Below, piece by piece: positions 9,028 through 15,286 of a DNA stretch of 64,000 nt (position 1 is its first letter; each line of letters opens with the position of its first letter). Location of the stretch: positions 57,289 through 121,288 of the forward strand of contig JAFPZY010000028.1 in NCBI GenBank assembly GCA_017417025.1, given 5' to 3'. Below the pieces are notes generated by a model. The model saw nothing but the letters and a program-made list of their open reading frames with translations. It was not told the origin of the DNA and searched no databases. Source of the DNA: Paludibacteraceae bacterium (GTDB lineage: Bacteria; Bacteroidota; Bacteroidia; Bacteroidales; Paludibacteraceae). Position numbers and translations under genes: made by a program.

Positions 9028-11286
9028 ATGTCTGTTGCAAAGGTGAGAATTATGCTATTGTGGGCTGTGCTGCTCCTGCAGCACGGTTTTGCCCGAGCAC
9101 AATACGCTGACACAGTGTTACTTCCGGAGGTAGAGATAGCTGCCTCGCGCTATGATGTACCCGTGACACGGATGCAGCAGCAGGCAAGCGTGATAACACC
9201 AGCAGAAGCGGAAAAGCGGGAGGCGGCGACACCTAAAGACATTGCGATGCTCGTCCCCGGATTAGTAATGCCGGATTACGGCTCTGCCATGACCTCCTCC
9301 ATATATGTCCGCGGTTTAGGGTCGCGGATAGACAATCCGGTCATAGGCCTTGTAATTGACGGAGTGCCACTGCTCGACAAGAACATGTATGACCAGCACC
9401 TGCCAGACATAAGGCGTATGACCTTTCTGCGGGGGCCACAAGGCACACTATACGGGAGAAACACCATGGGCGGACTATTAGAAATCAGCACTTTGCAGCC
9501 ACTTGACATGAGCAGTCTGCTTGTGCGGGCACAAGCCTCATACAGCACAGCCAACACAGTTGATGCAAGGGCGGCAGTGTATCAGCCAGTTTCTGAGAAA
9601 TGTGGCTGGGCGTTAGCAGCTTCATACGGGCGCACAGACGGCTTTCACACGAACACATTCACCGGTGACAGAATTGACCACTCATGGCAGGCATCGGGGC
9701 GGTTTGTACTTGATTTCAAGCCAGATAGACGATGGCGCATTGCCAACACCTTATCCGCCGGCTGGACAAAACAAGGGGCTTTTCCATATTACTCAGCACA
9801 AACAGGAGTCATTGCCTTTGACGGGCAAAGCGACTACAGGAGGCTCTGTGTTGCAGAGGCCGTAAGGGCAGAAATGAACAGCGGAGGACACAGGCTGTGC
9901 CTCTCCGCGAGCTACCAACTGCTTGACGACCTGATGAATATGGACCAGGATTACACCACAGCCCCCATCTTCACGCTGCGTCAGGCACAACGGGTGCACG
10001 GAGGCACGGCAGATGCTATGCTGTTTGGGGCAAAACCGTGCAAGTGGTATGACTGGCATGTGGGGGCCGGCGGTTTCGTCCGCCACAACAGCCTTGCCGC
10101 ACCAGTCACATTTCTACGTCAAGGCATTGACAGCCTGATACTTAAAAACGCCAATGCCGGAATAGCCTCCGTCTTTAAGGGTGACTCACTCGAAATACAC
10201 GACAACACCATACCCATAATCTCCGACTTCCAGTTACTCAACATAGGTGCAGCAATCTGGCACCAGAGCACTTTCAGTATCAACAAATGGCGCATCACAC
10301 TCGGCTTGAGACTTGACTATGAGCACGTTGCCATGAAATATGATGCACAAGCCGAATTGGACTGGCGCTTCACCATGGTGATGAATGAGCCAGAGCACCT
10401 GAAAACACAGCTGAACGGCAGGCTGCAGTCAAACTATATAAATCTGCTGCCAAGAGTGGCAGTATCATACGACTTCCAGAAAGCGACCATATATGCCTAC
10501 GCCGCCAAAGGGCATAAGGCAGGAGGGTATAATCCACAGATATTCAGCACCGTAATGCAGAACATGCTCATGCACGACCTATCATCGTCGCTCGGCATAC
10601 ACCTAAATGCCGAAGACCCGCGCTTTCTTGAGCCGGCAGTGATGTCGTACAAGCCTGAAAGAGCATGGACAATGGAAATAGGGACGCACCTGATGCCCCT
10701 TGAGGGGCTAAAAATGGATGCCGACCTCTTCTTCATAACATGCAGGGACAGACAGGTGACAGTGTTTCCAAACGGCAAAACGACAGGACGCATGATGTCA
10801 AACGCCGCACAATCAAGGAGTTGGGGAGCAGAGGCGGAAGTGTCGTATTCATGGCTCGCAGGCAGATGGAGAGGTGGTGTGCATGCCGCATACAGCTTCA
10901 CCGACGCGAGGTTCGTCAAGTATGACAGCGGCATGGGGGACTTTTCGGGGAAGCAGGTGCCATATTCGCCGGCGCACACTATGAGAGCAGCCGCAGACGC
11001 CGAATACAGAGCCGGCAAAAAATGGATAGACAAAATAACGGCGGCCGTGGAAGTGAGCGGGCTCGGCGACATACCGTGGAACGAGCAAAACACCGTAAGA
11101 CAGCCGTTCTATGCACTACTCTATGCCTCAGTCGGCCTGCACTGGAAGTATGTCAGTCTGCGGTTATACGGCAAGAACATGACTGATACACAGTATGATG
11201 TATTCCGGTTCAAGTCGATGGAAAACGAGTTCCTGCAGCGGGGAAAGCCACGAGAGCTTGGCGTGAAACTCACTTTCTCAATGTGA
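9028..11286 (+). CDS. TonB-dependent outer-membrane receptor
   Basis: A 752-aa protein with a signal peptide of about 24 residues (HGFARA/QYADTV). The plug domain follows directly, without a CarboxypepD module: VITPAEAEKREAATPKDIAM, SSIYVRGLGSRIDNPVIGL, VIDGVPLLDKNMY, FLRGPQGTLYGRNTMGGLLE. A 22-strand-type barrel ends in VKLTFSM with a terminal aromatic-rich strand, as expected for BAM insertion. This plan suits import of a metal chelate, cobalamin or similar small ligand; the ligand is not readable. There is no SusD gene next to it. A small lipoprotein follows at 11367 and could be an accessory. The stop codon lies inside the first unit of a 26-bp tandem repeat. Confidence 0.9.
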   Translation: MSVAKVRIMLLWAVLLLQHGFARAQYADTVLLPEVEIAASRYDVPVTRMQQQASVITPAEAEKREAATPKDIAMLVPGLVMPDYGSAMTSSIYVRGLGSRIDNPVIGLVIDGVPLLDKNMYDQHLPDIRRMTFLRGPQGTLYGRNTMGGLLEISTLQPLDMSSLLVRAQASYSTANTVDARAAVYQPVSEKCGWALAASYGRTDGFHTNTFTGDRIDHSWQASGRFVLDFKPDRRWRIANTLSAGWTKQGAFPYYSAQTGVIAFDGQSDYRRLCVAEAVRAEMNSGGHRLCLSASYQLLDDLMNMDQDYTTAPIFTLRQAQRVHGGTADAMLFGAKPCKWYDWHVGAGGFVRHNSLAAPVTFLRQGIDSLILKNANAGIASVFKGDSLEIHDNTIPIISDFQLLNIGAAIWHQSTFSINKWRITLGLRLDYEHVAMKYDAQAELDWRFTMVMNEPEHLKTQLNGRLQSNYINLLPRVAVSYDFQKATIYAYAAKGHKAGGYNPQIFSTVMQNMLMHDLSSSLGIHLNAEDPRFLEPAVMSYKPERAWTMEIGTHLMPLEGLKMDADLFFITCRDRQVTVFPNGKTTGRMMSNAAQSRSWGAEAEVSYSWLAGRWRGGVHAAYSFTDARFVKYDSGMGDFSGKQVPYSPAHTMRAAADAEYRAGKKWIDKITAAVEVSGLGDIPWNEQNTVRQPFYALLYASVGLHWKYVSLRLYGKNMTDTQYDVFRFKSMENEFLQRGKPRELGVKLTFSM

Positions 11287-11351
11287 CAAACCAAGAAATT
11301 TTCTCAATGTGACGGACCAACAAACTTTATCAATGCGACAAACCAACAAAC
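11274..11351 (+). repeat. Three tandem 26-bp repeats across the receptor stop codon
   Basis: Three imperfect copies (11274-11299, 11300-11325, 11326-11351) share the core TTTCTCAATGTGACAAACCA. The first copy encodes the last residues and TGA stop of the receptor; the others fill the gap to the lipoprotein. In each copy ATG and TGA overlap. Confidence 0.85.
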
Positions 11352-11366
11352 TAAAATTTTTATATT

Positions 11367-11837
11367 ATGAAAAAACACATTATTTTTGCATTAGCAGCCC
11401 TGATGATGGCAGCATGCACACACAGCAACGAGCCCGAGAACAGCAGCAACGCCGAAGCAGAAATCTTTGCACAGACAAAGAACTTCGCCGCCCTCGGCAA
11501 ATCGACCGTCCTCACCGAGCCTGTATTTGAGCAGGACAGCGTGATGCTTCTTGCCGAACTCACGTCCGACACGACACTGAGACTGTCGATGCTCGCCGTA
11601 ACATTCTCGGAGCGCATGCCCGTGACCATAGACATGATACTTGATTCGGTGAGCTACACGCGCTCGGAAAAACTAATAAGCTTCAGCGGGGAGGACATCA
11701 TCCCCACTGCCGGAGGCAAGCCCTACGACCGCTACAAAGCCACAGCCCTGAAAGGGACTATAACGCCGGACTCGCTGTGCCTCTCCGCCACACTGGGGAC
11801 ATACCCCGTCACCTACCACGGCGCGATACAAAAATAA
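11367..11837 (+). CDS. Small lipoprotein, possibly calycin-like
   Basis: A 156-aa protein with a lipoprotein signal peptide (LAALMMAAC, Cys near residue 17). The mature part has regularly spaced short beta strands and turns (DSVMLLAELTSDTTLRLSML, KATALKGTITPDSLCLSATL). This resembles the calycin-like small barrel lipoproteins of Bacteroidales, but I could not confirm a family. It lies 80 nt behind the TonB receptor, same strand, and ends in a strong intrinsic terminator, so the pair may be one unit. Role unknown; a surface or periplasmic accessory to the receptor is a guess. Confidence 0.7.
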   Translation: MKKHIIFALAALMMAACTHSNEPENSSNAEAEIFAQTKNFAALGKSTVLTEPVFEQDSVMLLAELTSDTTLRLSMLAVTFSERMPVTIDMILDSVSYTRSEKLISFSGEDIIPTAGGKPYDRYKATALKGTITPDSLCLSATLGTYPVTYHGAIQK

Positions 11838-12313: not shown

Positions 12314-12589
12314 TATGCTATAAAAAACGACCGTTTTTTGTGACATACATTTCTTTGCTGAAAAATATGCTGTTGCAGAACCAGAGGGCGTATGAATTAA
12401 GATTTCTCATTTTGCAATCGGAGCTGCTTGTTTTTGACATTTTTGTGCTAACTCTTAAGAAAAAAATGAAAAAAGTTGATAAAATATTTGCATACACAAA
12501 ATTTTTGTATTACTTTTGCAGACGTAAAAAGTGAGTTTCGGAAAACACAAAAAAGTATGTCACAAAAAACGGTCGTTTTTTATAGCATA
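12314..12589. other. 276-bp element with perfect 35-bp inverted repeats: probable invertible promoter
   Basis: Bases 12314-12348 are the exact reverse complement of 12555-12589 (35 of 35). Each arm contains a near-palindromic core, AAAAAACG-AC-CGTTTTTT. The 206-bp interior carries a consensus promoter (12487-12519) pointing at the surface-protein gene at 12686. Inverting the segment would turn the promoter away from the gene, where no minus-strand gene is present. This is the architecture of the phase-variable promoters known in Bacteroides. No recombinase gene is seen in the window. No target-site duplication is visible at the ends, which disfavours a miniature transposon. Confidence 0.75.
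12487..12519 (+). promoter_or_regulatory. Consensus promoter inside the invertible segment (ON orientation)
   Basis: TTTG at 12487-12490, a 20-nt spacer, and TACTTTTGC at 12511-12519. Transcription would run through the right inverted repeat into the gene at 12686, giving a leader of about 160 nt that contains a stable hairpin-prone AAAAAACGGTCGTTTTTT. Confidence 0.8.
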
Positions 12590-12685: not shown

Positions 12686-15094
12686 ATGAAAAGAAAAATC
12701 TACTTGCTTGCAGTTGCCATGGTGGCACTGCTAACCCTATGTCCAAAGGCCGCAAAAGCCGATGTGAATTACCTCAAAGAACCGTTTACGATTGAGACAA
12801 CGACAACCTCAAGCGGCGGAAGAATTGAGTTCAGGCATGTGTATGAAATTTCAGGCAGTAATAAAAACACGATAAATTTGGAGTATCGCATGCAGATTAA
12901 TGGTGGTGATTGGGGAGATTGGCAAACAGCATCTATTGCTTCCACTACATCATACAAACAATTCTATAATAATAGTATTTCTCTTTCTGCTTCCAAGACC
13001 TATAAAATACAATTTCGTGGCAATAACCCCACAGGATTCGGGAAGAACACTTCTACAGATTATTACAGAATAATTTTAGGTTCAGGTTCAACAAGTTGGC
13101 AAGTTACAATGTCTGGAAATATAATGTCTCTTATTGTAGGTTATGATACAGATGATGAAGCAGCGGCTAAAACGACATTGGCGGCAGCAGATGAGATACC
13201 GAGTACTGGTTGTTTCTGTAATCTTTTTAACAACTATGTACAAACTGGTGTTGGTAATCAGGGGGAACCGGCCTCTTCTATGACCCCACCGCGTATAAAT
13301 GCCTCAAATCTGATGTTCCCCGCAAAGTATCTGACGAATAGCTGCTATGCATATATGTTTTATTCAACCTCAACTGTCAATAATGGCTCAACACTTCTGT
13401 CAAACTATTCATTAGGGTTGAATGAGGGTCCTACTTTCCTTGCAACTGAATTTACGACTAAAGCAGGTGCAAATGTAAGCGATGCTTTTGCAAGAATGTT
13501 TATGATGTGTCAATCTTTGAAATCTGTGCATGTTAATTTTACAACTTGCCCTGGAAATAATTGTGCCTATTGGGTGTCTATGGGACCTTCATCAGCGACA
13601 CTTTATGCTCCTACAGGATTTAGCAGTTGTAGTACAGCAAATGATACTGGCATAGGCAGTTGCTGGACGACAAAAACCGCATGGTCGTGGGTGGCTCCTG
13701 TTGAGGCATATACGATTACATGGAAGTCGGAGGACGGGGTAACAACTTTAGAGACCGATGCTTCGCAAGCCGCAGGTGCTGCCACCGCTTTCAACGGCGC
13801 AACACCGACCAAATCAGGAAACGCACAATACAGCTACACCTTTGATGGTTGGGCGACTGAAGCCAACGGCGCGAAAGTATATAACAACGGCGGAACTCCT
13901 AATGTAAGCGGCGATGCCACCTACTATGCACACTTCAGCAGCGCAGTGAACAAATACACTATCACCTTTGAAGACGAAGACGGCACCCCTCTTCAGTCAT
14001 CTGATTTAGACTACGGCGCAACACCTGTTTACACAGGGGCCACCCCCACAAAAGCTTCCACAGAAACAACCACCTACACTTTTGCAGGGTGGAACACGTC
14101 AATTGCCACCGTAACAGGCCCCGCCACATATACAGCCACCTACAACTCCGCCGAGAGGACTTACACCGTAACATGGAAAAACGCCAACGGCACAATACTT
14201 GAAGAAGATGCAGGAGTAGCATACGGGGCAACACCCTCATACGACGGTGCTACCCCGACCCAAGAGGATGAATACCTCTCTTATACATTCAGCGGTTGGG
14301 ACGGAGACATAACAGCCACAGTGAGCCACGATGTAACTTTCACGGCCACTTACACCACCACTCCCAAAGCCTTTGTCCTCTATGACGACAAGAACAAGAA
14401 CGACCCTTACTACACCACCCTTGCCAACATGACAGGACAGGATGTACCCGCTGTAACTTTCAGCCGCAACTTTGCCGCCAAGACGTGGAATGTGTTCTCG
14501 CTGCCATTTGACTACATGCTGGCAGGAGAGAACAGGACCTTTGCAGGAGACGTTTATGAACTGTCAAGCATAGAATATGACGCGGCAACCAACAACCTGT
14601 CACTATTCTTCATGCCTGCAACATTACAAATATCAGCAAACAGGCCCTACCTCTATTACTCGGAGAGCGGTGTGGACAACCCCGTGTTTGCGAATGTACG
14701 GATGCAAGCTATAGCACCCAATTATTACAACGTAACAGACGCTATTTCAGGCGGAAGTATCCAATTCAGGAACACCACTTACCGCCAGCAATTAGAGAAA
14801 GACAACAAAAAAATAGTGTTCATCACCAGCAACAGGCTCTTTTATATGGGGAGCAACAACATTTATCTGCGCGCCTTCCGCGGGTACTTCTATCTGACCG
14901 ACATCGACCTGAATGTCAATGTCGCCCCGAGAGCAAGAATAGTTTTGGGCAACCAGACAGCCACAGAAATTGAAGTAGTGACAGATGTAGATGAAAACAC
15001 CGGTAACAATGTACGCAAATACGTGGAAAACGGTGTAATGATTATTGAGCGTGAAGGTGTGCGCTATGACGCGCAAGGCTCAAAAATAGAATAA
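12686..15094 (+). CDS. Large secreted surface protein with three Listeria-Bacteroides (InlB B-type) repeats
   Basis: An 802-aa protein with a signal peptide (residues 1 to about 25, AAKA/DVNY). Residues about 30-335 are an unrecognised N-terminal domain, visibly richer in A+T than the rest of the gene. Three InlB B-type repeats follow at about 341-420, 422-490 and 491-557, each reading YTITW/F ... GATPT ... YTFAGWN ... ATYTATY. The region 560-780 (DVPAVTFSRNFAAKTWNVFS) is typical of the carboxy half of Bacteroidales surface proteins. The last 25 residues (NGVMIIEREGVRYDAQGSK) look like a sorting tail; type IX secretion is possible but unproven. Such proteins are adhesin-like. Expression is probably controlled by the invertible promoter just upstream. 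Confidence 0.8.
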   Translation: MKRKIYLLAVAMVALLTLCPKAAKADVNYLKEPFTIETTTTSSGGRIEFRHVYEISGSNKNTINLEYRMQINGGDWGDWQTASIASTTSYKQFYNNSISLSASKTYKIQFRGNNPTGFGKNTSTDYYRIILGSGSTSWQVTMSGNIMSLIVGYDTDDEAAAKTTLAAADEIPSTGCFCNLFNNYVQTGVGNQGEPASSMTPPRINASNLMFPAKYLTNSCYAYMFYSTSTVNNGSTLLSNYSLGLNEGPTFLATEFTTKAGANVSDAFARMFMMCQSLKSVHVNFTTCPGNNCAYWVSMGPSSATLYAPTGFSSCSTANDTGIGSCWTTKTAWSWVAPVEAYTITWKSEDGVTTLETDASQAAGAATAFNGATPTKSGNAQYSYTFDGWATEANGAKVYNNGGTPNVSGDATYYAHFSSAVNKYTITFEDEDGTPLQSSDLDYGATPVYTGATPTKASTETTTYTFAGWNTSIATVTGPATYTATYNSAERTYTVTWKNANGTILEEDAGVAYGATPSYDGATPTQEDEYLSYTFSGWDGDITATVSHDVTFTATYTTTPKAFVLYDDKNKNDPYYTTLANMTGQDVPAVTFSRNFAAKTWNVFSLPFDYMLAGENRTFAGDVYELSSIEYDAATNNLSLFFMPATLQISANRPYLYYSESGVDNPVFANVRMQAIAPNYYNVTDAISGGSIQFRNTTYRQQLEKDNKKIVFITSNRLFYMGSNNIYLRAFRGYFYLTDIDLNVNVAPRARIVLGNQTATEIEVVTDVDENTGNNVRKYVENGVMIIEREGVRYDAQGSKIE

Positions 15095-15160: not shown

Positions 15161-15286
15161 ATGAAGACATACAGAAAACCTGTCACACAGACATTCGAAC
15201 AAATAGTAGAAAACATGGTGCTGTGCGCATCACAGATGAAAGGCACTGTGGAAAAAAGCAATGTCCTTCCTGAGGGAGATTATTAA
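15161..15286 (+). CDS. 41-aa small protein downstream of the surface protein
   Basis: The ATG at 15161 opens a 41-codon frame with TAA at 15284-15286. The start reads MKTYRKPVTQTFEQIVENMV and the end reads KGTVEKSNVLPEGDY. I recall similar short proteins (MK-Y-KP at the start, an acidic aromatic end) from many Bacteroidales, often behind surface-protein genes, but their function is not known. It lies 66 nt after the surface protein, separated by a perfect 12-bp palindrome (GCGCTTAAGCGC, 15137-15148), and is followed by a terminator, so it is probably the last gene of the phase-variable transcript. Confidence 0.65.
   Translation: MKTYRKPVTQTFEQIVENMVLCASQMKGTVEKSNVLPEGDY

Follow-up and report, generated by a model that had tools for sequence, protein, structure and literature searches.

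The element described here, 276 bp in total, lies in a window of 64 kb, which is the whole stretch of DNA that was analysed. It is best read as one copy of a multi-locus system of phase-variable promoters of the Mpi type, a reading to which a probability of about 0.86 can be given. Judging from its sequence, the segment between the two arms can probably be flipped by a recombinase; that the enzyme is Mpi and that transcription follows the orientation of this copy is what we infer. At the sequence level, the system is a variant in its site centre, its outer half-sites and its class of targets: the outer sequence is new and the core is Mpi-like. A previous sequence-only reading of this DNA had proposed that the gene of a repeat-domain surface protein is preceded by a promoter enclosed by inverted, recombinase-like sites, and this proposal is supported by the genome-wide evidence presented below.

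The window element

The features of the element and of the genes behind it are collected in Table 1. The two 35-bp arms had been described as exact reverse complements. This is confirmed, and they form the longest perfect inverted repeat of the window (among arms 60-600 bp apart), compared with 11-16 nt for the longest perfect inverted repeats of 20 first-order Markov shuffles of the same DNA. The match between the arms extends further, to 12357/12546, making 44 nt at 93% identity. The left arm is itself nearly palindromic: an outer half TATGCTAT is followed by the core AAAAAACG-AC-CGTTTTTT and by an inner half GTGACATA, and the right arm is the inverse of this arrangement. The near-palindrome, which resembles a recombination site, covers 34 nt. 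The promoter that had been seen between the arms, aimed at the gene at 12686, is recovered by pattern matching and has the gene-directed orientation in the window, in agreement with the suggestion that the switch is ON in this assembly. Upstream of the element, three near-tandem copies of a 32-nt stretch, spaced by 26 nt, are found at 11267-11350; they start inside the end of an ORF that stops at 11286.

Table 1 Features of the window element and of the adjacent genes (positions in the window)
Feature	Position	Strand	Remarks
Left arm, 35 bp	12314-12348	+	exact reverse complement of 12555-12589; core with AC centre at 12322-12339
Segment between the arms, putatively invertible	12349-12554	.	promoter part opposite in strand to the C44 segment
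Bacteroidales-type promoter, TTTG-N20-TACTTTTG	12487-12518	+	pattern match; directed at the gene (ON orientation)
Right arm (gene side)	12555-12589	-	core with GT centre at 12564-12581
Gene of an 802-aa protein, presumably switched	12686-15094	+	signal-like N-terminus, Listeria-Bacteroides (InlB-type) repeat
41-aa ORF behind the surface gene	15161-15286	+	possibly co-transcribed

A family of elements across the genome

The assembly from which the window was taken is a draft (2,184,811 bases, 64 contigs, 89% complete). A search of the genome for the same arm had been suggested, and the DNA search found the window arms at many places of the assembly, where they recur at promoter-bearing elements. 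The core AAAAAACGNNCGTTTTTT has 18 exact copies in the genome and, with two mismatches allowed, 22 matches versus 6 for the reversed control. The shorter cores AAACGNNCGTTT (23 versus 14 for its control) and ARACGNNCGTYT (29 versus 45) are not clearly enriched. Six elements are complete, namely those of the window (contig C63), C27, C34, C36, C44 and C57, with a spacing of 226-242 bp between cores. Six others are half elements, represented by single sites near the ends of contigs C6, C7, C15, C37, C42 and C55. The genome would thus carry about ten elements, a count that assumes that the distal halves of C6, C15, C37 and C42 belong to different elements and that the gene-side halves of C55 and C7 complete some of these same elements. 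This multiplicity could not be seen from the window alone. Seven of the 18 sites lie at most 300 bp from a contig end, where 0.3 were expected (binomial P = 1.4e-8 if the sites are independent), as is expected where repeats or mixed orientations break the assembly.

A promoter match with a spacing of 18-21 is present between the arms of 6/6 complete elements and of the halves C37 and C42; matches running across an arm (C37, C15) were left out of this count. The segments of C36 and C37 are 96-98% identical to that of C44, and outside the group made up of C36, C44, C37, C15 and C55 the spacers match C44 over 28-98 nt only. Cassette exchange was considered as the cause of the near-identical segments and discarded: by eye, C36 and C44 are also alike outside the arms, so that duplication suffices to explain their likeness.

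Anatomy of the sites

All 18 sites match both ARACG and CGTYT. The inner half-site is GTGACATA or GTGATATA in 17 of them, and in the site of C7 the contig ends after four bases of the inner half. The gene-side outer half is ATAGCATA in five of eight sites (C63, C34, C36, C44 and C55) and ATGACACA, ATGGCATA or ATGACATA in the remaining three, and the distal outer half is TATGTCAC or TATATCAC in 9/10, that of the window being TATGCTAT. The 22-base form of the site, CACAAAAAACGNNCGTTTTTTGTG, has no match in genome_contigs (84,980 species, the genome under study possibly being left out). The outer sequence of this series of sites was found nowhere else among the species genomes. A search of phage records returned two weak partial matches only.

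The central dinucleotide is AC/GT in 16 sites and TC/GA in the two sites of C34. Five complete elements carry AC in one arm and GT in the other, and C34 carries TC and GA; the inverted sites therefore have complementary centres in 6/6 complete elements. The TT centre of the exact B. fragilis repeat, ARACGTTCGT, is found in 0/18 sites. Among the matches listed for this genome and its relatives, centres are complementary in 13 of the 14 pairs that are at most 300 bp apart (the six complete elements included); the exception is a pair from the relative G016, 91 bp apart, whose two TT-centred sites face the same way. For serine recombinases, PMC11607074 describes a cut staggered by 2 bp and at most trace recombinants between sites that differ in their central overlap; with Hin, strands are not ligated in the inverted direction once a core base has been altered (PMC4817059). 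The complementary centres of the close pairs fit the near absence of recombination between mismatched 2-bp overlaps, and the variation of the centre as a unit, AC or TC, also suits an overlap of this size.

Recombinases encoded in the genome

The genome encodes three serine recombinases, all of which score above the cut-off of NCBIfam NF009949, the master DNA invertase Mpi family (290, 308 and 310 bits versus 272), and whose genes read without interruption. Among the three, identity is 76-81% in the catalytic parts (105-114 of 139-140 positions) and 24-35% in the DNA-binding parts (13-19 of 55), which suggests different DNA specificities. The previous reading had advised looking for a nearby recombinase. 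Mpi genes are indeed present in the genome, but none is found beside the window element; where an Mpi gene and an element share a contig, the gap between them is about 15 kb (C15) or 24 kb (C44). Two tyrosine recombinases, both Xer-like, are encoded on contigs C40 and C24: one of them, XerD-like, scores above the general PRK00283 cut-off, and the other is nearest to XerC and falls below the cut-offs shown. At 89% completeness, the assembly may lack a further recombinase.

The near-palindromic 34-nt site also divides as 13-8-13, the layout of loxP, and its anatomy alone is thus compatible with a tyrosine recombinase. Moreover, Tsr-type enzymes invert promoters of outer-membrane proteins and polysaccharides in B. 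fragilis, according to the part of PMC4747536 that deals with them. Nevertheless, the only tyrosine recombinases found are the XerD-like and XerC-nearest ones, the core of the sites is the Mpi core and the centre varies as a unit. Inversion by a Tsr-type tyrosine recombinase instead of Mpi therefore seems improbable, although it is the strongest of the competing explanations.

On the reading by Mpi, dimers of a small serine recombinase of this family would occupy the near-palindromic sites of the two arms, one dimer per arm. The central dinucleotide (AC in the left arm, GT in the right) would be cut with an offset of 2 bp between the strands, and the middle segment would then be rejoined the other way round. 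The TTTG/TAnnTTTG promoter would, in one orientation, drive the surface protein gene at 12686 and perhaps also the 41-aa ORF; in the other, it would point away and the gene would be off. With like sites at about ten dispersed loci, several related InlB-repeat surface proteins could be switched independently.

A further, rather doubtful elaboration of this mechanism is that two overlap codes coexist on one half-site (about nine elements of this genome are AC/GT and one, C34, is TC/GA), one invertase flipping all of the loci and the code setting the exchange partners. If that were true, the overlap code would decide which loci exchange segments or invert large regions together, and the diverged DNA-binding parts of the three Mpi paralogues would add a second layer.

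Across the genus, an Mpi match above the cut-off is found in 90/151 genomes (the present one included), whereas the exact 16-base core occurs in 5/61, indicating that the enzyme is general in the genus and the site is not. For the Mpi proteins, the best named relatives come mostly from Bacteroidales metagenome-assembled genomes of ruminant and other animal guts, several of them labelled Paludibacteraceae. The 80 named Mpi loci, with flanks of up to 6 kb, contain 10 core pairs of ACGNNCGT and none with similar arms, so that site and enzyme are linked only by their co-occurrence. By a hand count, no more than 200 bp separate the Mpi match from the end of the locus, and so of the contig, in 24 of these 80 loci (L131-L210), which may reflect a repeat or a variable junction beside the invertase gene.

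Orientation of the segments

In order to compare orientations, each element was turned with its distal flank to the left and its gene side to the right, and was read from the promoter with a spacing of 18-21 or, failing a visible promoter, from the end of the spacer. The gene side of C57 and C42 was assigned from the outer half-site alone; the surface gene of C57 lies at a distance of 3.9 kb, with two ATPase-like ORFs in between. Two of the ten elements, those of the window and C6, read towards the gene side, and the other eight (C27, C34, C36, C44, C57, C37, C15 and C42) read away from it. Of the gene-side halves, C55 reads away too and C7 is unreadable. The homology between segments agrees with these readings. 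Compared with C44, the promoter part of the window segment aligns on the minus strand (60 nt, 77%), next to two short plus-strand matches of 20 and 13 nt; the spacer end of C6 is on the minus strand too (28 nt, 93%), and C27, C34, C36, C57, C37, C15, C42 and C55 are on the plus strand. There is, however, also a looser promoter match, with a spacing of 23, that faces the gene side in C34, C36, C37 and C44, and the OFF calls of these four hence rest on the better-spaced match together with the homology.

Both orientations are seen between paralogous elements of this genome and between two copies in the relative G050, not within one locus. The cleanest sign of inversion is this G050 pair: the two elements of its contig C46 have flanks running in the same direction (84% and 90% identity) around a 199-bp segment that is inverted at 97.5% identity. 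On the same 12,003-bp contig (L100), the elements, with mirrored flanks at 338-526 and 11519-11707, bound the whole contig; exchange between them could invert the 12 kb in between, or the contig itself could reflect such a variant.

Genes next to the elements

The 802-aa protein behind the window element matches Pfam PF09479 above the cut-off (E = 2.7e-10), as well as TIGR02543. The Pfam search covered eight proteins near elements. InlB/Listeria-Bacteroides repeats above the cut-off were found in this protein and in those of C7 (1704 aa), C44 (1165 aa), C55 (1090 aa) and C57 (1575 aa), that is, an InlB-repeat surface protein is present at five of the seven loci with a gene in view. The two other loci differ: C34 is close to a nucleotidyltransferase gene and not to that of a surface protein, and C27 is close to a gene for a 317-aa protein for which the Pfam search gave no family, with a TonB-dependent receptor gene on the other side. 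Relatives of this 317-aa protein, 38-54% identical, are found beside sites in G050 and G016, and the two of them that were tested have no Pfam match either.

The C-termini of the C7, C57, C44 and C55 proteins and of a 945-aa protein encoded 4 kb from the C27 element align to the window protein over 391-476 columns with 30-42% identity. The N-termini align weakly (27-31%) among the window, C7 and C57 proteins, but not with those of C44, C55 and the C27 945-aa protein. The shared C-terminal region is also present in proteins with no site in view (L121, L025, L116, L115 and L118) and thus marks a wider surface family rather than the switch. In the whole genome, 55 PF18998 matches fall in 24 open frames (our own grouping), 22 of which have a match above the cut-off, and only part of this repertoire is therefore near an arm-type site. 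No other invertible family was found upstream of InlB-repeat proteins in 17 stretches. Four further loci were scanned and two of them have an imperfect inverted repeat, L037:9155-9317 and L025:4619-4696. That of L037 (C32) has 30-nt arms at 9155-9184 and 9288-9317, between an Mpi gene and a 1642-aa ORF; it is upstream of a large ORF, has no promoter match inside and is possibly another switch or something else.

Several other neighbours recur. The 41-aa ORF of the window and an ORF of about 43 aa (L022 9454-9585) look similar (MK-x-Y-x-x-P), and these small ORFs adjoin genes at two elements. A Bro-N gene stands on one side of the TC/GA elements of C34 (L023 10676-11308) and of contig C7 of the relative G098 (L103 4740-5600), and no such gene is among the neighbours shown for the third TC/GA element (G050 C18). 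ATPase-like ORFs are repeatedly found between elements and surface genes, both here and in relatives (L029 1122-2402 and 3048-4379; L022 10967-12217; L020 about 18180; L098 2891-4096), the assignment being AAA_14 by Pfam for L098 and by the look of the translation for the others; C7 seems to keep only a remnant of one.

The same core in related genomes

Eight relatives were picked out of 150, seven for their high site counts and G098 for its pair, a choice that gives no rate. Inverted core pairs are present in three of them, G011 (2), G050 (4) and G098 (1), with spacings of 172-287 bp and AC/GT or TC/GA centres; G050 has three AC/GT elements and one TC/GA element. G073 and G091, absent among the Mpi matches listed, have 12 and 10 sites and no pair, and G021 and G047 possess Mpi and no such inverted pair. 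Only inverted pairs were counted as evidence in relatives; isolated AAACGNNCGTTT sites were disregarded there, their counts being mostly no higher than those of the reversed control. In G016, TT/AA-centred cores like those of B. fragilis occur beside AC/GT ones, several of them at contig ends (L107 5240-5342, at the end of its C6, and L108 6-17).

The G011 genome bears on another explanation, according to which the window copy is the remnant of a switch that is now locked and permanently ON. The Mpi match of G011 is split over two frames, yet two elements have been kept there. In the genome under study, by contrast, three Mpi genes are uninterrupted, the window arms are identical over 35 bp and 7/18 sites are near contig ends, which leaves a locked switch slightly less probable than a Tsr-type enzyme. 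Less probable again is that a promoter lies by chance between the terminal repeats of a miniature transposon or of an old dispersed repeat. About ten copies in one genome, several with segments 96-98% identical, would suit this explanation. The complementary centres of all six complete elements, the mere 28-98 nt that the other segments share with C44, the InlB-repeat proteins at five of seven loci and the opposite orientations of paralogous elements speak against it, and in the 16-nt flanks no target-site duplication, the mark by which the sequence-only reading would have recognized such a transposon, is visible by eye.

Relationship to known switch systems

The Mpi-type system that is thus favoured has its closest known model in B. 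fragilis, in which the repeat of the Mpi-controlled promoters is ARACGTTCGTN (PMC8375218, in a passage citing Coyne 2003). Both systems combine an Mpi-family serine invertase with dispersed promoter segments and a single ARACG-NN-CGT core, both contain a Bacteroidales promoter and in both the output is likely to be surface structures. The arms had been considered unlike Mpi-type sites and as possibly defining a separate family. This does not hold for the core, ARACG-NN-CGTYT, which is that of Mpi, but it does for the centre and the outer halves. The centres are AC/GT (16 sites) or TC/GA (2) here and TT there, the 34-nt near-palindrome has outer halves of its own and three Mpi genes are present here. 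The targets differ as well, being mainly InlB-repeat proteins here, whereas seven of the 13 Mpi regions of B. fragilis are polysaccharide promoters in the account given in the relevant section of PMC4747536.

A second likeness is to PVR7-11 of Bacteroides intestinalis, where several loci share one inverted repeat that overlaps the Mpi motif and where at least two Mpi homologues are stated, several being present here too (both from the portion of PMC8375218 on this species). According to the same portion, that repeat is 10 bp long, GTTCGTTTAA, and serves capsule operons, in contrast to the 26-35-bp repeats found here, mainly at surface proteins. In systems of the Tsr19/BF2766 type, a single enzyme flips two promoters, one nearby and one distant, with polysaccharide and outer-membrane proteins as targets (PMC4747536, same section); that enzyme is a tyrosine recombinase, and only Xer-like members of this family were found here. 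The inverted-repeat sequences of a defined gut community, 1837 in number, have been sorted into 146 groups, as stated in PMC11892184. The literature search, with the motif tables of this last paper outside its scope, returned no mention of Paludibacteraceae or of the ten-base piece of the site among the papers listed.

Significance

In an uncultured Bacteroidales lineage, an Mpi-type system appears to switch related surface proteins. This extends the global phase variation of the Mpi type, best known from Bacteroides capsules, to an uncultured lineage of gut Bacteroidales. The combination of a fixed half-site, a variable centre, an outer sequence that no other species genome searched contains, and paralogous invertases makes these elements a natural set in which partner choice by serine invertases can be tested. 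For the organism itself, an uncultured gut bacterium, it means that cells may change their surface coat at random.
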